From a virus, in IMG/VR virus record IMGVR_UViG_3300036846_000771, positions 1-30,828 of that record: a stretch of DNA of 30,828 bases. The stretch is one strand, 5' to 3'. The translations under genes and the position numbers were made by a program. The notes below the pieces were generated by a model that was not told the DNA's origin, searched no databases, and worked only from the letters and a program-made list of their open reading frames with translations. Positions 3,533 through 19,260 of the stretch are shown here, piece after piece (position 1 is the stretch's first letter; each line of letters begins with the position of its first letter).

Positions 3533-3775
3533 ATGAGCAGACTGACGAAGCCGCAGATGCGGGCACTGGATTTTTTCGAGAAGAGCGAGCGTGATCCGAC
3601 GACGGTGTTCGGAAAGGCCGCGCCAGCGACCAAGACCACGAATTGGCTGGTGTGCCGCTTATATGTTGACTGCCGGTCCGTCGGTGCGTTCGACATGAAG
3701 GCGTTCAGGCTGAGCGATAAAGGGCGTGCAGCGTTGCGAGGTAAGGACCATGGCACAAAGACTGCTGACGTATAA
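3533..3775 (+). CDS. Small winged-helix-like phage protein
   Basis: This 80-residue protein begins MSRLTKPQMRALDFFEKS and ends with FRLSDKGRAAL. The LT..Q..AL start and the LSDKGRAAL end are typical of small winged-helix domains (helix-first, wing-last) found in phage accessory regions. The ATG at 3533 follows AGGAACG at 3526, favouring it over the ATG at 3509. The 3' end overlaps the AlpA-like gene by 26 bases. A DNA-binding regulator is plausible; the fold is inferred from pattern alone. Confidence 0.55.
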   Translation: MSRLTKPQMRALDFFEKSERDPTTVFGKAAPATKTTNWLVCRLYVDCRSVGAFDMKAFRLSDKGRAALRGKDHGTKTADV

Positions 3776-4022
3776 TGAGCTGCGTGATCACGGCGTGAAC
3801 TATACGCGCCGGCATCTCGACACGCTCGAGCGCCAGGGCAAATTTCCCAGGCGGGTGGCGATCGGCGAGTTCAGGGTCGGCTGGGTCGAGGCCGAGATCG
3901 ACGCCCATACCGCGGCCAGGATCAAGGCGCGCTCGAGCAGGACCGGTGAATTGGGATCAACCGGGCAGTCAAAGAAAAAGCGCGGAGCCGAAGCCCCGCG
4001 CCTGGATGATGATGCGGCCTGA
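3750..4022 (+). CDS. AlpA/excisionase-type DNA-binding protein
   Basis: This 90-residue protein contains an MerR-like winged helix of the AlpA class: LTYNELRDHGVNYTRRHLDTLE, then QGKFPRRVAI, then a wing with VGWVEAEIDA (residues 4-57). Members of this class act as excisionases or as activators of integrase expression. Its position, facing the integrase operon and about 950 bp from the integrase stop, fits that. The Lys/Arg-rich tail (65-90) is probably disordered, and its DNA also encodes a terminator for the opposite strand. The start at 3750 has AAGGA upstream. Candidate binding targets are the palindromes at 6391-6403 and 6442-6460. Excision control is an inference. Confidence 0.75.
   Translation: MAQRLLTYNELRDHGVNYTRRHLDTLERQGKFPRRVAIGEFRVGWVEAEIDAHTAARIKARSSRTGELGSTGQSKKKRGAEAPRLDDDAA
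3971..4001 (-). terminator. Rho-independent terminator of the integrase operon
   Basis: Read on the minus strand, a 9-bp GC-rich stem (GCGCGGGGC / GCTCCGCGC) closes a TTCG tetraloop and runs straight into TTTTTCTTT. It lies 23 bases beyond the membrane-protein stop and entirely within the 3' coding end of the convergent AlpA-like gene. Confidence 0.85.
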
Positions 4023-4966: not shown

Positions 4967-6277
4967 TTAGGCAGCGGCAGTTTCGACCAGCCGCAGGCGC
5001 GACTGTTCCGGTTCCTTGACGAGCTTCTCGATGTAGTCGCCCCAGGCCTGCATGGCGGCGATGCGCTCGTCCAGGTACTGGGCGAAGTTGTAGTGCTTGC
5101 GCACGCCCTTCTTGGTCTCGCCCATATGGTTGATGCAGGCGTCGGTGACGTGCGGGGCAATCTTGAGGACGTCCTGGCCAAGCGTGTCGAACGACCGGCG
5201 GAAGTCGTGCATGCCCCAGTCCCCCTTGACGACCTCCCGACCGTAGGCGTCGCGCCGCTTGGCGAGCCGCTCCTTCAGCCGCTTTATCGACTTGTCCCAG
5301 CCATCATAGCCACCATCCCCGGTGCCAAAGAGATGCTGATTGGCGCGTTTGGGATGCTGGGCGAAAACCGCCAGCGCCTGGGTCGAAAGCGGAATCAGGA
5401 AGGTCTTGCGGTTCTTCGACAAGCTTTCATTCGCGACCTCGCCAAGCTTGGCGAGCCGGTTGGCTTCCTGAATACCGACCTGACCACCGAGCGTGATCAG
5501 GGCATCGCCCTCGTGCAAATCATCCTGACGCAGGTTGCCGATCTGGCCACGGCGCGCACCCGTCAGCATCAGCAGCTTGATGATGCGACCAAACTCATCG
5601 TCGCCAGCCTCCTGCCAGATGGCGGCAAGTTCCTTCGGCGACAGCACGCGGTCACGGGCCACGCTCTGGAATTTTTCGGTGCGATTGACCGGGTTGTGAT
5701 CGCAGAGGCAGCGCTCGTTCGCCCAGTTGAAGAACTTCGACAGCGTGGCGCGAGAACGGGTCATCCCGATCTTGCCGCGCTTTTTGATCTTGTCGAGTTC
5801 ACGGATGACGGTTGGCTTGTCGATCAGCTTGATCGGAATGGTGTGCAGGCCGGCAAAATCGCCCTCGAGCTGAACGCGCTGCGCCTTGATGTAGTTCGCA
5901 GAACGCTTTTTGTCCTTTTGCGATTCCAAAAATTGCTCGATCAGATCCTTCATCGGCGTGGCGAGGTCGGCGGTCGCCTTCGCGTTTTCGATATTCGGAT
6001 TGACCTTACGCGAGATCATTTCCTCAAAGCGGATGGCTTCCTTCTCGGCGAAGTCGAGGGTGACGGCACCGACCTTGCCGATCTTGATGGTCTCGTACCG
6101 ACTGTTGAGCCCGAAGTAGTAGGTGTAGGTGCCGACCGGGTTTCCATTTCGGAAACGGATGGCAAGCTTGGACATTTTGGGATGCTGCACTTTCACGTCA
6201 GCCTTATCGGCCTTATCAGCCGGCGGGCGCACGTCGAGCACGTTCTTTTCAGTCCAGTTTTCGATCTTCTTGGCCAT
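4967..6277 (-). CDS. int: Tyrosine-recombinase integrase
   Basis: This 436-residue protein fits the size of phage integrases with an N-terminal arm-binding domain (about 30-95), a core-binding SAM-like domain (107-190) and a catalytic domain (210-405). Catalytic residues can be placed: Arg242 in TGARRGQ, Lys near 288-291 in SKNRKTFLIPL, His357 and Arg360 in MHDFRR, His384 in CINHMG, and Tyr396 in KHYNF. The usual Glu after the first Arg motif is Gln245. It catalyses site-specific recombination between attP and a host tRNA gene. The start lies 190 bp from the tRNA-derived core, and nine GGGAGGG motifs flank that core. Two of these are in its own leader, so it may repress itself. Confidence 0.95.
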   Translation of the reverse strand: MAKKIENWTEKNVLDVRPPADKADKADVKVQHPKMSKLAIRFRNGNPVGTYTYYFGLNSRYETIKIGKVGAVTLDFAEKEAIRFEEMISRKVNPNIENAKATADLATPMKDLIEQFLESQKDKKRSANYIKAQRVQLEGDFAGLHTIPIKLIDKPTVIRELDKIKKRGKIGMTRSRATLSKFFNWANERCLCDHNPVNRTEKFQSVARDRVLSPKELAAIWQEAGDDEFGRIIKLLMLTGARRGQIGNLRQDDLHEGDALITLGGQVGIQEANRLAKLGEVANESLSKNRKTFLIPLSTQALAVFAQHPKRANQHLFGTGDGGYDGWDKSIKRLKERLAKRRDAYGREVVKGDWGMHDFRRSFDTLGQDVLKIAPHVTDACINHMGETKKGVRKHYNFAQYLDERIAAMQAWGDYIEKLVKEPEQSRLRLVETAAA

Positions 6278-6368
6278 GGGATTCTCGCGGTTGATGGGTG
6301 GTTTGTGGGAGGGTTTTGGGAGGGTTTGAGTTTTCTATCCAGCTCTTCTCGTCTCCCAATAATCAAAT

Positions 6369-6397
6369 GGTATACACCACAAAAACCCTTACAGCAA
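6369..6397 (-). promoter_or_regulatory. Candidate integrase promoter
   Basis: On the minus strand TTGCTG (6397-6392) and TATACC (6374-6369) are 17 bp apart, about 90 bp ahead of the integrase start. A 13-bp palindrome covers the -35 box. Confidence 0.4.
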
Positions 6398-6403
6398 TGC
6401 TGT
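6391..6403. promoter_or_regulatory. Palindrome over the candidate integrase -35 box
   Basis: ACAGCA-A-TGCTGT is a perfect 6-bp-arm palindrome. It shares its CAGCA/TGCTG half-site with the larger inverted repeat at 6442-6460. It is a candidate operator or excisionase site. Confidence 0.4.
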
Positions 6404-6441
6404 TTACTTCTATTCAGTTCTGCTCAAACCCTCCCAATTCT

Positions 6442-6460
6442 AATGCTGAAAATCAGCATT
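6442..6460. repeat. Perfect inverted repeat next to attP core
   Basis: AATGCTGA and TCAGCATT form perfect 8-bp arms with a 3-bp spacer, ending seven bases before the tRNA-derived core. It may be a binding site for excisionase or another architectural protein. A short hairpin is also possible, though no adequate T-run follows. Confidence 0.45.
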
Positions 6461-6467
6461 TTCACGT

Positions 6468-6512
6468 CTGTTAATCGAATGGTCGCTGGTTCGAATCCAG
6501 CCCGGGGAGCCA
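6468..6512 (+). other. attP core: 3' part of tRNA-Asn(GUU)
   Basis: The segment contains an anticodon loop CTGTTAA (6468-6474, anticodon GTT at 6470-6472), the 3' strand of the anticodon stem, and a 5-nt variable loop. A complete T arm follows (GCTGG-TTCGAAT-CCAGC, 6485-6501), then the acceptor 3' strand CCGGGGA (6502-6508), discriminator G and encoded CCA (6510-6512). The 5' half of the tRNA is absent upstream. A phage-borne tRNA 3' end beside an integrase is the usual attP identity segment that restores the tRNA on integration. The exact 5' limit of identity depends on the host gene. Confidence 0.85.
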
Positions 6513-6760
6513 ACAAATTCAATCACTTAGCAGCTAGTCCGACCGGCCAACCCTCCCAAAAAATCCCCGTGGGAGGGTTTTGGGAGGGTCCGGTCTATCC
6601 CTTTGGGAGGGTTGGGCGATTGGCCGCCGCTTTGCATGCAGATGCATGCATCTCACGGGGCGTCGATGGCAAAAATCAGATGGTCGGGAATCGCCCCCAC
6701 AAGTGGCGGGTGGAAGCCAAAAGGGGTTTTGGGAGGGTTTTGGGAGGGAACCGGGAAAGA

Positions 6761-7009
6761 TCAGCGTGCCGGTTTCTTCAACAGATCGGCCGGCTCGATC
6801 TCGAGCGCCCGCGCCAGCCGCTCGATGTTGTCGAGGCTGATATTGCGCTCGCCCCGTTCCACGGAGCTGACATAGGTCCGGTGCAGGCCGGCGAGATCCG
6901 CCAGGGCCTCCTGAGACAAACCGCGCATCTGTCGCTCCCGTCGCAGGTTGGCGGTAAAGTTTTTGCGGGCGGTAAAGTTTTTGCGGAGCGGCGTGCGCGA
7001 TTCTCTCAT
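6761..7009 (-). CDS. Small XRE-family regulator
   Basis: This 82-residue protein has a canonical XRE helix-turn-helix at about 20-78: LRRERQMRGLSQEALADLAG, HRTYVSSVERGERNISLDNI, then LARALEIEPADLLKKP. Residues 10-20 contain a tandem six-residue duplication (KNFTAR-KNFTAN) caused by an 18-bp DNA repeat. It lies alone beside attP, leftward, ending 13 bp from the last arm motif and opposed to the accessory operon at 7455. It could regulate integration genes or its own promoter at the repeats 7041-7090. The ATG at 7009 has only a weak ribosome-binding site. Confidence 0.8.
   Translation of the reverse strand: MRESRTPLRKNFTARKNFTANLRRERQMRGLSQEALADLAGLHRTYVSSVERGERNISLDNIERLARALEIEPADLLKKPAR
6951..6986. 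repeat. Perfect 18-bp tandem duplication inside the XRE gene
   Basis: GCGGTAAAGTTTTTGCGG occurs at 6951-6968 and again at 6969-6986. The 18-bp length adds six codons in frame ahead of the HTH. It looks like a recent slippage or duplication event. Confidence 0.8.
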
Positions 7010-7040
7010 CTCGCCAGTACGGCATCTTTGATGATTTCGC

Positions 7041-7090
7041 GTCGACAGACCATAAGTCGGCAGCCGATGGGTCGACAGTCTATAAGTCGA
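7041..7090. repeat. Two 20-bp direct repeats, 30 bp apart
   Basis: GTCGACAGACCATAAGTCGG (7041-7060) and GTCGACAGTCTATAAGTCGA (7071-7090) match at 17 of 20 positions. They lie just upstream of the leftward XRE gene and are candidate operators for it. Each contains a short inverted element, GTCGAC. Confidence 0.55.
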
Positions 7091-7332
7091 ATTTTTCGTC
7101 CTATTTTCCGTGAGTTAGGACAGCAGCGCTGGCACGGAAGTCGATGGGCACGTAGGAATTTACCTAAGATGATATCTTAATCGTGTTCTGAAAATGACAC
7201 CGGGTGTGCAAAAAAAATGCAATCCATGCCTCGATTGACCATCACAAAAAATAACAAAGCCCGTCGAGGTTGTGAGGGAATATTGGCGGTTGCCTATTGT
7301 CTTAGTGGCATATCAGGTATTGAAATGACGAC

Positions 7333-16281: not shown

Positions 16282-19260
16282 CTACTCGGGTGGTCCGGTT
16301 TGTCTGCTGCCGATATCGGCAATGATGGCGAGGCGACCGGCGATGTCGGCCGCGCGTTGCGAACCTGGCGGTGCCAGCGCCAGTTTTTCGAACTCTCTGC
16401 CGGCGTTCGGATTGGTCAGAAGTTTTGTAATCTGATCGATCTTGTTGGTTCGACTGATGTTCTGGATGGCGCGCTGCGCTCGATCCCCCATCTTGAGCAC
16501 GCCGAACAAGGCACCCGGCAACCCACCGGTATGCCCCGCGGCTCCCGTGAACGCGGCCTCGACCGCGGCTGAACCAAAACTGTGCGGGTTCTCCAGCTCG
16601 TGCCGGATCTCCTGGAAGAACGCCGTTGGCGACCCGACGCGCTGCCGCGCCCCCGTGGCCTGCATCACATCCATGAATTTGCTGAATCCATCGGTCGTCT
16701 TGTCGCCATACACGGTACGCAACGCTGCATCGAGATTTCGACGTTGCTGCGGATTGCCGAGTACACCCGCCGCAAACCCGGCACCGCCGTACTGGCTGGC
16801 ACCGGTCTGCAGATCCCGCGTGAACTGATTGAAGCGGGTCTGCAGATAGTGATTGACCAGATCCCTGGCGACCTGTGGCGAGCGTTGTTTCACCGCGGCC
16901 AGGGCATCGGAAATCTCGCCCTCCGTCTGTGCGCCAGGATTGCGCTTGAACAGCACGTCCATGGCATGGCTGACATCCGGGTTCTTGGAAAGCTGACCGA
17001 GCGGCGATGCCATCACCCCCTCGAGGCCCTCCCGCGCAATCGCGATCGACTCGAGCTTGTCCCGCACACCTGGCATTTGCCGCAGCAGATCCTCGTTCTG
17101 CGTGATCGCCTGGCGGATCGTTTTGGAGTTGACGTCAGCGCCCTGACGGCCGGCGTGGTTCAGAACTTCGGTGATGAAATTGTGTTCGTAAGCCTCGCGC
17201 GCGGCTGGCGTCGCCACGCTCTGAAACTCCCGCACCCCCGTAGGACCGCGGCCGGTAACCGCCCCCGGTACCTGTTCGGGCCGCATCGCAAATTCAGGCG
17301 GCGGGCTCCCAGGACCATAAACATGGGATGGCGTGCCCTCGCGTCGCTCGACGATCTGTCCTGGCGCGCGATCGGCGGCAAAGGGATCGAGCGGCCGGCT
17401 CGCCGCCCTAAAATTCTGCATCGCCTCTGCCTGCGCCGGCACCCGCTCGAGCACCTTGTCGAACAGGTCGCGCACATTGAGCAGCTGACTTGCCGCCTCG
17501 CCATGGCCGGCGGTCTTCGCCGAGCCAATGATGTTGTTCAGCTCCTCGCGCGCCCGCTGCATGCCAGCGACGCTGGTGTCGAGGTTGCCGTCCGCATCGT
17601 TGAGCAGCTCGCGCGCCCGTGTCATGTACGGCCTGGTGTCGCCTTTGGCGGACGCAGTCGCGCGATCGAGAAGCTGGGCGGCCGGCGTCGGATCGACCTG
17701 GACATAATGCGTCGGTCCCATGCCGACGATCGGTTTTTCGTTTGGACCGATCGGCCGAATGAGCTGCCGGTTGCGCGCCTCGATCGCCGCTTGCCGCGCC
17801 TGCTCATTGGCAGTCTGTTCGGCGTCGATCTCGTCCTGGGTCTTCCGCACCATGCGGCCTTGCGCATCGCGTTTCATGGTGCCGACAGGCTGCGGGATAT
17901 CGAGCCGCTCGACCGCGAGCTGCTGCTCCGACTTGCGTTCGAACCGGCCGCCTGCGCCACGGCCAACCGGCGGTGGTTCAGGCGGCGTGTAATGTTCCAC
18001 ATAAGGCCCGGTGCGTAGACCTTCGTTCACCGGAACGGTTGGCGGCGCATTGCGTGCCGCGGCGAAATCCTGGTCGGCAAGCGCACTGCGCATGCCCTCG
18101 CGCCGCGCCTCGACGCCGGCCAGTTCAGGCTGGATCACATTGCCCGCCTGCTCCGCGGTCGTCGACGGACCCGCACCCCAGACGTTTTCTTTCAGGATCT
18201 GCCCTTCCGGTGACTGCTCGACCGCCTGGCGCGCCGTGCTCATGACGTCGGGACCGATCATCGACGGCTGCATGTTCGGTGTACCCAGCTCGCCGAACGC
18301 CTGCTGGCCATAACGCTGCACGCCTTCCGGCAGCTGCGAATAGAAATCGGTCAGGCCCCCCGTGCCTTCGACATAGCGCTGAATATTGCCGAGGTTGGTC
18401 GCGCCGCCGGTCACATGCTGCAGCGCTGTCGCGCGGGTCATTGGGATGCCCGACGTGTTGGCGTGCTGGAACAGTTCTTCCGCCTGCTGCACCTGTTGAG
18501 GTGTCACCCGGCCGCCGGCTGCGTTGGTGATGACGCGATCGGCTGCGCCAGGACGCGTCAGGTAGGCAGCGCCGCCAGCGGTCCCAACCGCAGCTGCGCC
18601 GCGCGCCCAGGGCTCGTAGGGCGTCCCCGCCGTCGCCTGGCCGGCGGTTTCCGATGCCGCGCCAGGTGCCCCGACATACTTCAAAAAGTTCGAACCGGCC
18701 TCCTTGGCCTTCTGAAGATATTTGCTGCCAAGGCCCGCCAGTGTCTCGGCCGCGGCGGGCGCTTCGCCGGCACGCGTTTCCGGCGCGAGCAGGCCAGGCA
18801 GGAACGATGCGATGGTATGGGCATACTGCCCCGGCAGCGTCGTCGCCTGGTGCCGGAACGGTTGCGCCTGGTACCAGGCTTCCGGCCCATAGGCCTCGCC
18901 GATCGCCTTGGCGGTCTCCTCCGGAACGACGTAATTTTTCGCCCTTTCCGCATGCACATCCGCCAGTGGCCGGCCCTGCGTCCAGGCTTGCCCGCGCTCG
19001 ATCAAACCCTGGCCATGCCCGATCATCGACGGAATCAGGCCCAGAATGCCGCTGGCACCTTCGGCCAGGCCTGATAAAGAGCTGAGCCCGATATCCTTCC
19101 CGGTCGAACCGTAGGGGTCTGTCAAAGGGGCGCTAAAAGGGGTATTTTTGGTAATGTAGACTCGCGTGAGCGGCTTTGCTTCGTCAGTTTTCTTTTGTCC
19201 AACCGGCCCCAATTCAGGCGGCGGGTCTTTAAATTCGATCGGAGGAAGATCGTTCGCCAT
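16282..19260 (-). CDS. Large internal virion (DNA-ejection) protein
   Basis: This 992-residue, largely helical, Ala/Gln/Glu-rich protein lies between the transglycosylase ejection protein and the tail fibres, where podoviruses encode their largest injected protein. The N-terminal 50 residues are polar and Pro-rich. Residues 55-85 (IGLSSLSGLAEGASGILGLI and on) and a stretch near 915-945 (FTGAAGHTGGLPGALFGVLK) are Gly/Ala amphipathic segments of the sort that insert in membranes. Long coiled-coil-prone regions fill 250-880. No enzymatic motif is apparent. It probably leaves the capsid with the DNA and helps form the channel across the envelope. The start has no convincing ribosome-binding site. 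Confidence 0.75.
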   Translation of the reverse strand: MANDLPPIEFKDPPPELGPVGQKKTDEAKPLTRVYITKNTPFSAPLTDPYGSTGKDIGLSSLSGLAEGASGILGLIPSMIGHGQGLIERGQAWTQGRPLADVHAERAKNYVVPEETAKAIGEAYGPEAWYQAQPFRHQATTLPGQYAHTIASFLPGLLAPETRAGEAPAAAETLAGLGSKYLQKAKEAGSNFLKYVGAPGAASETAGQATAGTPYEPWARGAAAVGTAGGAAYLTRPGAADRVITNAAGGRVTPQQVQQAEELFQHANTSGIPMTRATALQHVTGGATNLGNIQRYVEGTGGLTDFYSQLPEGVQRYGQQAFGELGTPNMQPSMIGPDVMSTARQAVEQSPEGQILKENVWGAGPSTTAEQAGNVIQPELAGVEARREGMRSALADQDFAAARNAPPTVPVNEGLRTGPYVEHYTPPEPPPVGRGAGGRFERKSEQQLAVERLDIPQPVGTMKRDAQGRMVRKTQDEIDAEQTANEQARQAAIEARNRQLIRPIGPNEKPIVGMGPTHYVQVDPTPAAQLLDRATASAKGDTRPYMTRARELLNDADGNLDTSVAGMQRAREELNNIIGSAKTAGHGEAASQLLNVRDLFDKVLERVPAQAEAMQNFRAASRPLDPFAADRAPGQIVERREGTPSHVYGPGSPPPEFAMRPEQVPGAVTGRGPTGVREFQSVATPAAREAYEHNFITEVLNHAGRQGADVNSKTIRQAITQNEDLLRQMPGVRDKLESIAIAREGLEGVMASPLGQLSKNPDVSHAMDVLFKRNPGAQTEGEISDALAAVKQRSPQVARDLVNHYLQTRFNQFTRDLQTGASQYGGAGFAAGVLGNPQQRRNLDAALRTVYGDKTTDGFSKFMDVMQATGARQRVGSPTAFFQEIRHELENPHSFGSAAVEAAFTGAAGHTGGLPGALFGVLKMGDRAQRAIQNISRTNKIDQITKLLTNPNAGREFEKLALAPPGSQRAADIAGRLAIIADIGSRQTGPPE

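Follow-up and report, generated by a model that had tools for sequence, protein, structure and literature searches.

The attP of the Mesorhizobium symbiosis island ICEMlSymR7A spans 283 bp and contains five arm sites of sequence TGKTGGTATC, all of which are required for efficient integration; attP-bound IntS has also been proposed to shut off intS transcription (PMC11963761). In the KplE1 prophage, IntS represses its own gene from the att sites (PMC2951348), and arm domains of the DUF4102-like type have been described (PMC8138268). In this report, we examined positions 6278-6760 of a virus fragment of 30,828 bp (the entire stretch is termed “the window” below). The initial annotation had taken this interval for an attP with repeated integrase arm sites around a tRNA-derived core, and a comparison with related loci supports that view. 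We estimate a probability of about 0.93 that a temperate phage has its attP at 6278-6760, with integrase arm sites flanking a tRNA-Asn core. Its nine G-rich repeats are almost certainly the arm-type sites, putatively bound, of the adjoining integrase. The arrangement is ordinary phage biology; in the data searched, the repeated word did not turn up beside any other integrase.

Exact GGGAGGG occurs seven times on the plus strand of the interval (6307, 6318, 6571, 6582, 6605, 6731 and 6742) and twice on the minus strand (6429 and 6551). This count confirms the nine copies first noticed at 6307-6748, where about 0.2 would be expected by chance: in 5000 dinucleotide shuffles of 6200-6860, the number of copies averaged 0.22 and never exceeded 3. 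The rest of the 30.8 kb has a single further copy, at 17027. The 11-mer TTGGGAGGGTT describes the repeat unit better than GGGAGGG does, and its copies start at 6305, 6316, 6427(-), 6549(-), 6569, 6580, 6603, 6729 and 6740; none of them deviates from the unit by more than two mismatches. All nine are inside the 483-bp gap that separates the start of the integrase gene (6277) from the next ORF, the stop of which is at 6761, and they surround a 45-bp att core on both sides. On the integrase side are a plus-strand pair at 6305..6326, about 28-50 bp upstream of the integrase start, and a single inverted arm-like site found by motif scan at 6427..6437 (minus strand). The motif scan places on the distal side an inverted site nearest to the core (6549..6559, minus strand), a pair at 6569..6590 and, 23 bp after it, a single site at 6603..6613, both on the plus strand. 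An outermost plus-strand pair, the last unit of which is degenerate, occupies 6729..6750, just past the stop of an HTH gene. The three tandem pairs all have a repeat spacing of exactly 11 bp, as the positions confirm. The sites are indeed unusually many: nine, compared to five both in ICEMlSymR7A and at a related locus, L008.

Across all of its 45 bp, the att core (6468..6512, plus strand) matches the 3′ part of tRNA-Asn(GTT) exactly, beginning in the anticodon loop and ending with GAGCCA. Exact copies are found at tRNA-Asn loci in bacterial genomes of one bacterial order, and the identity continues up to the 3′ end of these tRNA-Asn(GTT) genes, which bears out the proposed tRNA origin of the core. 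At 22 tRNA-Asn loci with the core, GGGAGGG was present at most three times per 3 kb, and integrases of the window’s family were not detected; the check for spaced pairs at these loci is valid only where the core reads on the plus strand. A 13-bp core element (AATCRAATGGTCG-like) at 6473-6485 repeats on both sides, at 6361-6373 and 6674-6686, and these flanking copies are perhaps secondary core-type sites. The distal arm also contains a palindrome-rich stretch, TGCATGCAGATGCATGCATC, at 6635-6655. A scan with the IHF consensus WATCAANNNNTTR gave no match in the attP region.

The gene at 4967..6277 (minus strand) encodes a tyrosine integrase of 436 aa (PHROG integrase, 9e-34; Phage_int_M, 4e-7) with arm-binding N-terminal, core-binding and catalytic domains. 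The catalytic residues R242, K288, H357, R360, H384 and Y396 are invariant or nearly so in an alignment of 57 sequences, and a profile made from this alignment matches the arm domains 3ju0 (1.6e-17) and 3jtz (1.2e-15). In the AlphaFold model of the protein (pLDDT 87.9), the N-terminus fits these two solved domains at 1.9 Å; the Pfam arm-domain match of the single sequence (0.0019) is below the cut-off. By type, the enzyme belongs with the P4/SXT integrases, and its arm domain is DUF4102-like. The parallel to lambda-type integrases drawn initially holds for the general logic of arms and core, but not for the type of enzyme. Another gene, at 3726..4022 (plus strand), specifies a small AlpA/Vis-like HTH protein (PF05930, 1.4e-6; PHROG excisionase, 1.8e-6) that, judging by these matches, is a candidate recombination directionality factor. 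The attP region is bounded by a small HTH_3 regulator (6761..7009, minus strand; PF01381, 1.1e-17), which the arm-site reading does not need. The start of the HTH ORF contains an imperfect duplication of GGCGGTAAAGTTTTTGCGG (~6945-6985), and GTCGACAGNCNATAAGTCG is present twice a short way upstream of the ORF (~7040-7092); these are possible operators. The int strand has one weak promoter-like match at 6437-6465, with a chance expectation of 0.4.

The relatives set, which counts the window as a member, comprised 62 distinct integrase loci for which upstream DNA was at hand; the relatives found are about 22-34% identical to the window integrase. In 22 of the 62 loci, an identical word of 8 bp or more is repeated in direct orientation with 11-bp spacing, no more than 150 bp upstream of the integrase start (shuffles: mean 0.09, maximum 1), a result that supports the arm-site reading. 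Widening the spacing to 10-12 bp increases the number to 31 of 62, with 1 in a coding control, and about half of the relatives have no exact 10-12-bp pair upstream of the integrase. The commonest tandem spacing of the integrase arms is 11 bp. The window pair at 6305..6326 matches the relatives’ pairs in position and spacing, which supports its assignment to the integrase leader.

The words themselves vary by locus. Read on the int strand, they include GCTTCCCA, ATCTTCCCA, TGTTACCCC, GGAACCCCA, GTGCCCCCG and others, and the window has AAACCCTCCCA. Word similarity tracks integrase relatedness (Mantel r 0.34, p 0.001). Partial correlations of 0.19 (N-terminal domain given the rest) and 0.31 (the rest given the N-terminus) did not single out the N-terminal domain, as opposed to the integrase as a whole, as what the word tracks. 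The words of the nearest relatives, TGGGAAGCA/TGGGAAGAT, are close to that of the window; the arm-site sequence, which had been called novel, is therefore new in the data searched but not remote from its nearest counterparts. Two loci, L008 and L013, have the same tRNA-Asn core as the window and other words on both sides; L008 has five TTGGTATCTT sites, of which two precede int and three are distal. The constant 11-bp geometry, combined with varied words that in some cases surround the same tRNA core, furnishes a panel for studying how N-terminal domains read arms, and the same panel is usable for the design of integrases without cross-reaction. The nine-site attP serves as a site-rich test case.

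Both att copies were located for three complete integrated elements, the repeats of which are 48, 53 and 47 bp long. In all three, the word of the int-proximal pair returns at attR, on the element side and partly degenerate: GCTTCCCATAGTCTTCCCA plus an inverted TGGGAAGATT in L037, GTGTCCCCGGCGCGTCCCCT in L050 and AGGAACCCATACAGAACCCC in L087. Further, a distal-arm stretch of the window (6511..6585, minus strand) is collinear with the attR of the integrated element L037/L161. The alignment scores 53, whereas the best score was 40 among 349 genomic pieces and 39 among 500 shuffles; it concerns a single pair of loci, and it sets L037 TGGGAAGA opposite window TGGGAGGG. It runs up to the core boundary, and the GGGAGGG sites are thereby tied to the arms of a related integrated element. 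The int-proximal arm of L037, aligned directly to the window, has no significant similarity outside the pair.

Searches for the word returned little. The exact word had seven matches in 84,980 genomes scanned, none beside a detected integrase of the window’s family, and we read these as chance or low complexity; the single pairs at L005 and L006 in the viral scan are likewise read as chance. A first genome scan yielded unrelated stretches only, a single-protein search of viral contigs gave no matches, and none of the papers searched combines “arm-type”, “GGGAGGG” and “integrase”. A 40.6-kb relative (L152/G760) has the same structural genes as the window (portal 63% identical), but it encodes another integrase and lacks the GGGAGGG array. 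Judging by this one case (n=1), array and integrase module seem to move together.

One viral contig, L007, has the identical word and no integrase, and it led to a second class of arrays, situated directly after D5-type primase genes. These arrays, 300-400 bp in length, occur both in phage contigs and in bacterial genomes, the latter all from one order (L007:3361-3650; L146 from 18201; L128-L145 beside the primase stop). Of 34 primase loci, about two thirds have at least five copies of a G-rich word just past the primase stop. The word differs between loci (GGGAGGGTT, GCGAGGGTT, GGGAGGAT, AGGGAGGC and others), and the mostly 9-bp tandem spacing and the order of orientations recur. The primase-linked arrays are candidate replication-origin iterons, and they are possibly more interesting than the attP array.

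Could the window array instead be a replication origin, composed of iterons for a D5-type primase/initiator whose gene lies beyond the end of this fragment? The G-rich arrays after the primase genes of L007, L091 and L098 (word GGGAGGGTT) and those with other words at many primase homologs would favor this idea. Inverted pairs in L007 and L091 resemble window 6549(-)/6569(+), and the identical 11-mer TTGGGAGGGTT is present in these two primase-linked arrays and in window 6305-6750. However, the 9-bp spacing that prevails at primases differs from that of the window pairs (11, 11 and 11), which equals the mode of integrase arms, and a D5_N primase is absent both from the window record, itself a fragment, and from G760. 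The alignment of 6511-6585 with an attR arm, the presence of sites on either side of the att core and the pair at the family position before int also speak against an origin, which we deem very unlikely. Given the 11-bp spacing and the lack of D5_N in the window and the 40.6-kb relative, the shared word may be a convergence of two G-rich word families. A dual use, in which both this integrase and the D5-type primase initiators of co-resident or other phages recognize TTGGGAGGGTT, is just as improbable; if true, the attP could double as a replication or interference site.

It is even less probable that the sites serve as operators, whether for the HTH regulator (6761-7009) or for the AlpA-like protein. 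The HTH gene does adjoin the outermost pair, and the PHROG annotation of AlpA-type proteins makes both excisionase and regulator roles possible. But the pairs recur before the relatives’ integrases, integrated elements have them at either att end, and the outermost pair is located past the stop of the HTH gene, away from its promoter. Least credible is a G-quadruplex of the G-rich strand acting as a structural switch at attP: the potential suggested earlier exists, in that the plus strand of the region has three canonical G3-run motifs and the three tandem pairs fit the canonical motif, but a motif upstream of int is unconserved (the window and 1 of 61 homologs) and is lacking in the attP regions of L008 and L013, so the architecture persists without it, and the quadruplex is a by-product of the word and not the selected feature.

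Some observations weigh against the arm-site reading: the exact word was not seen beside other integrases, it is present in primase-linked arrays, the Pfam arm match is below the cut-off, and many relatives have no exact pair. For the attP with integrase arm sites, we infer the following course of events. The integrase would cut and rejoin DNA inside the 45-bp tRNA-Asn core, and its N-terminal domain would bind the TTGGGAGGGTT arms, grouped 2+1 on the integrase side and 1+2+1+2 on the far side. Arm binding could then assemble a higher-order complex, or intasome, that brings attP and attB into alignment. Integration would divide the array between attL and attR, and the arms could therefore have a part in excision as well, probably together with the AlpA-like protein. 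Through the pair 28-50 bp before int, the integrase may repress its own gene; such autoregulation is plausible by analogy to the systems described above.

Of those systems, lambda Int/attP resembles the window in having arm sites that flank the core and in its integrase fold, but its arm domain is of another subfamily, its arm word is different and its sites are fewer. The att region of KplE1 intS attL has, like the window, sites between the tRNA core and int. There, the int promoter overlaps att and autoregulation was shown, whereas in the window it is a prediction by analogy; further, the KplE1 arm word contains TAAA, whereas the window unit is TTGGGAGGGTT. The HPI and HAI7 integrases (3jtz, 3ju0; P4/SXT type, DUF4102/Arm-DNA-bind_3) have in common with the window the predicted arm fold, the catalytic residues, the tRNA target and an AlpA-like partner, although the window has its own arm word and a single-sequence Pfam arm match below the cut-off. 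ICEMlSymR7A shares with the window several arm motifs around a core, an attP of a few hundred bp and an adjoining int; it differs in its word and number of sites (five of TGKTGGTATC, as opposed to nine of TTGGGAGGGTT) and in its directionality factor, RdfS, where the window candidate is the AlpA-like protein. The five sites of L008 contain the word part TTGGTATC/TGGTATC of ICEMlSymR7A, and they accompany the tRNA-Asn core of the window.
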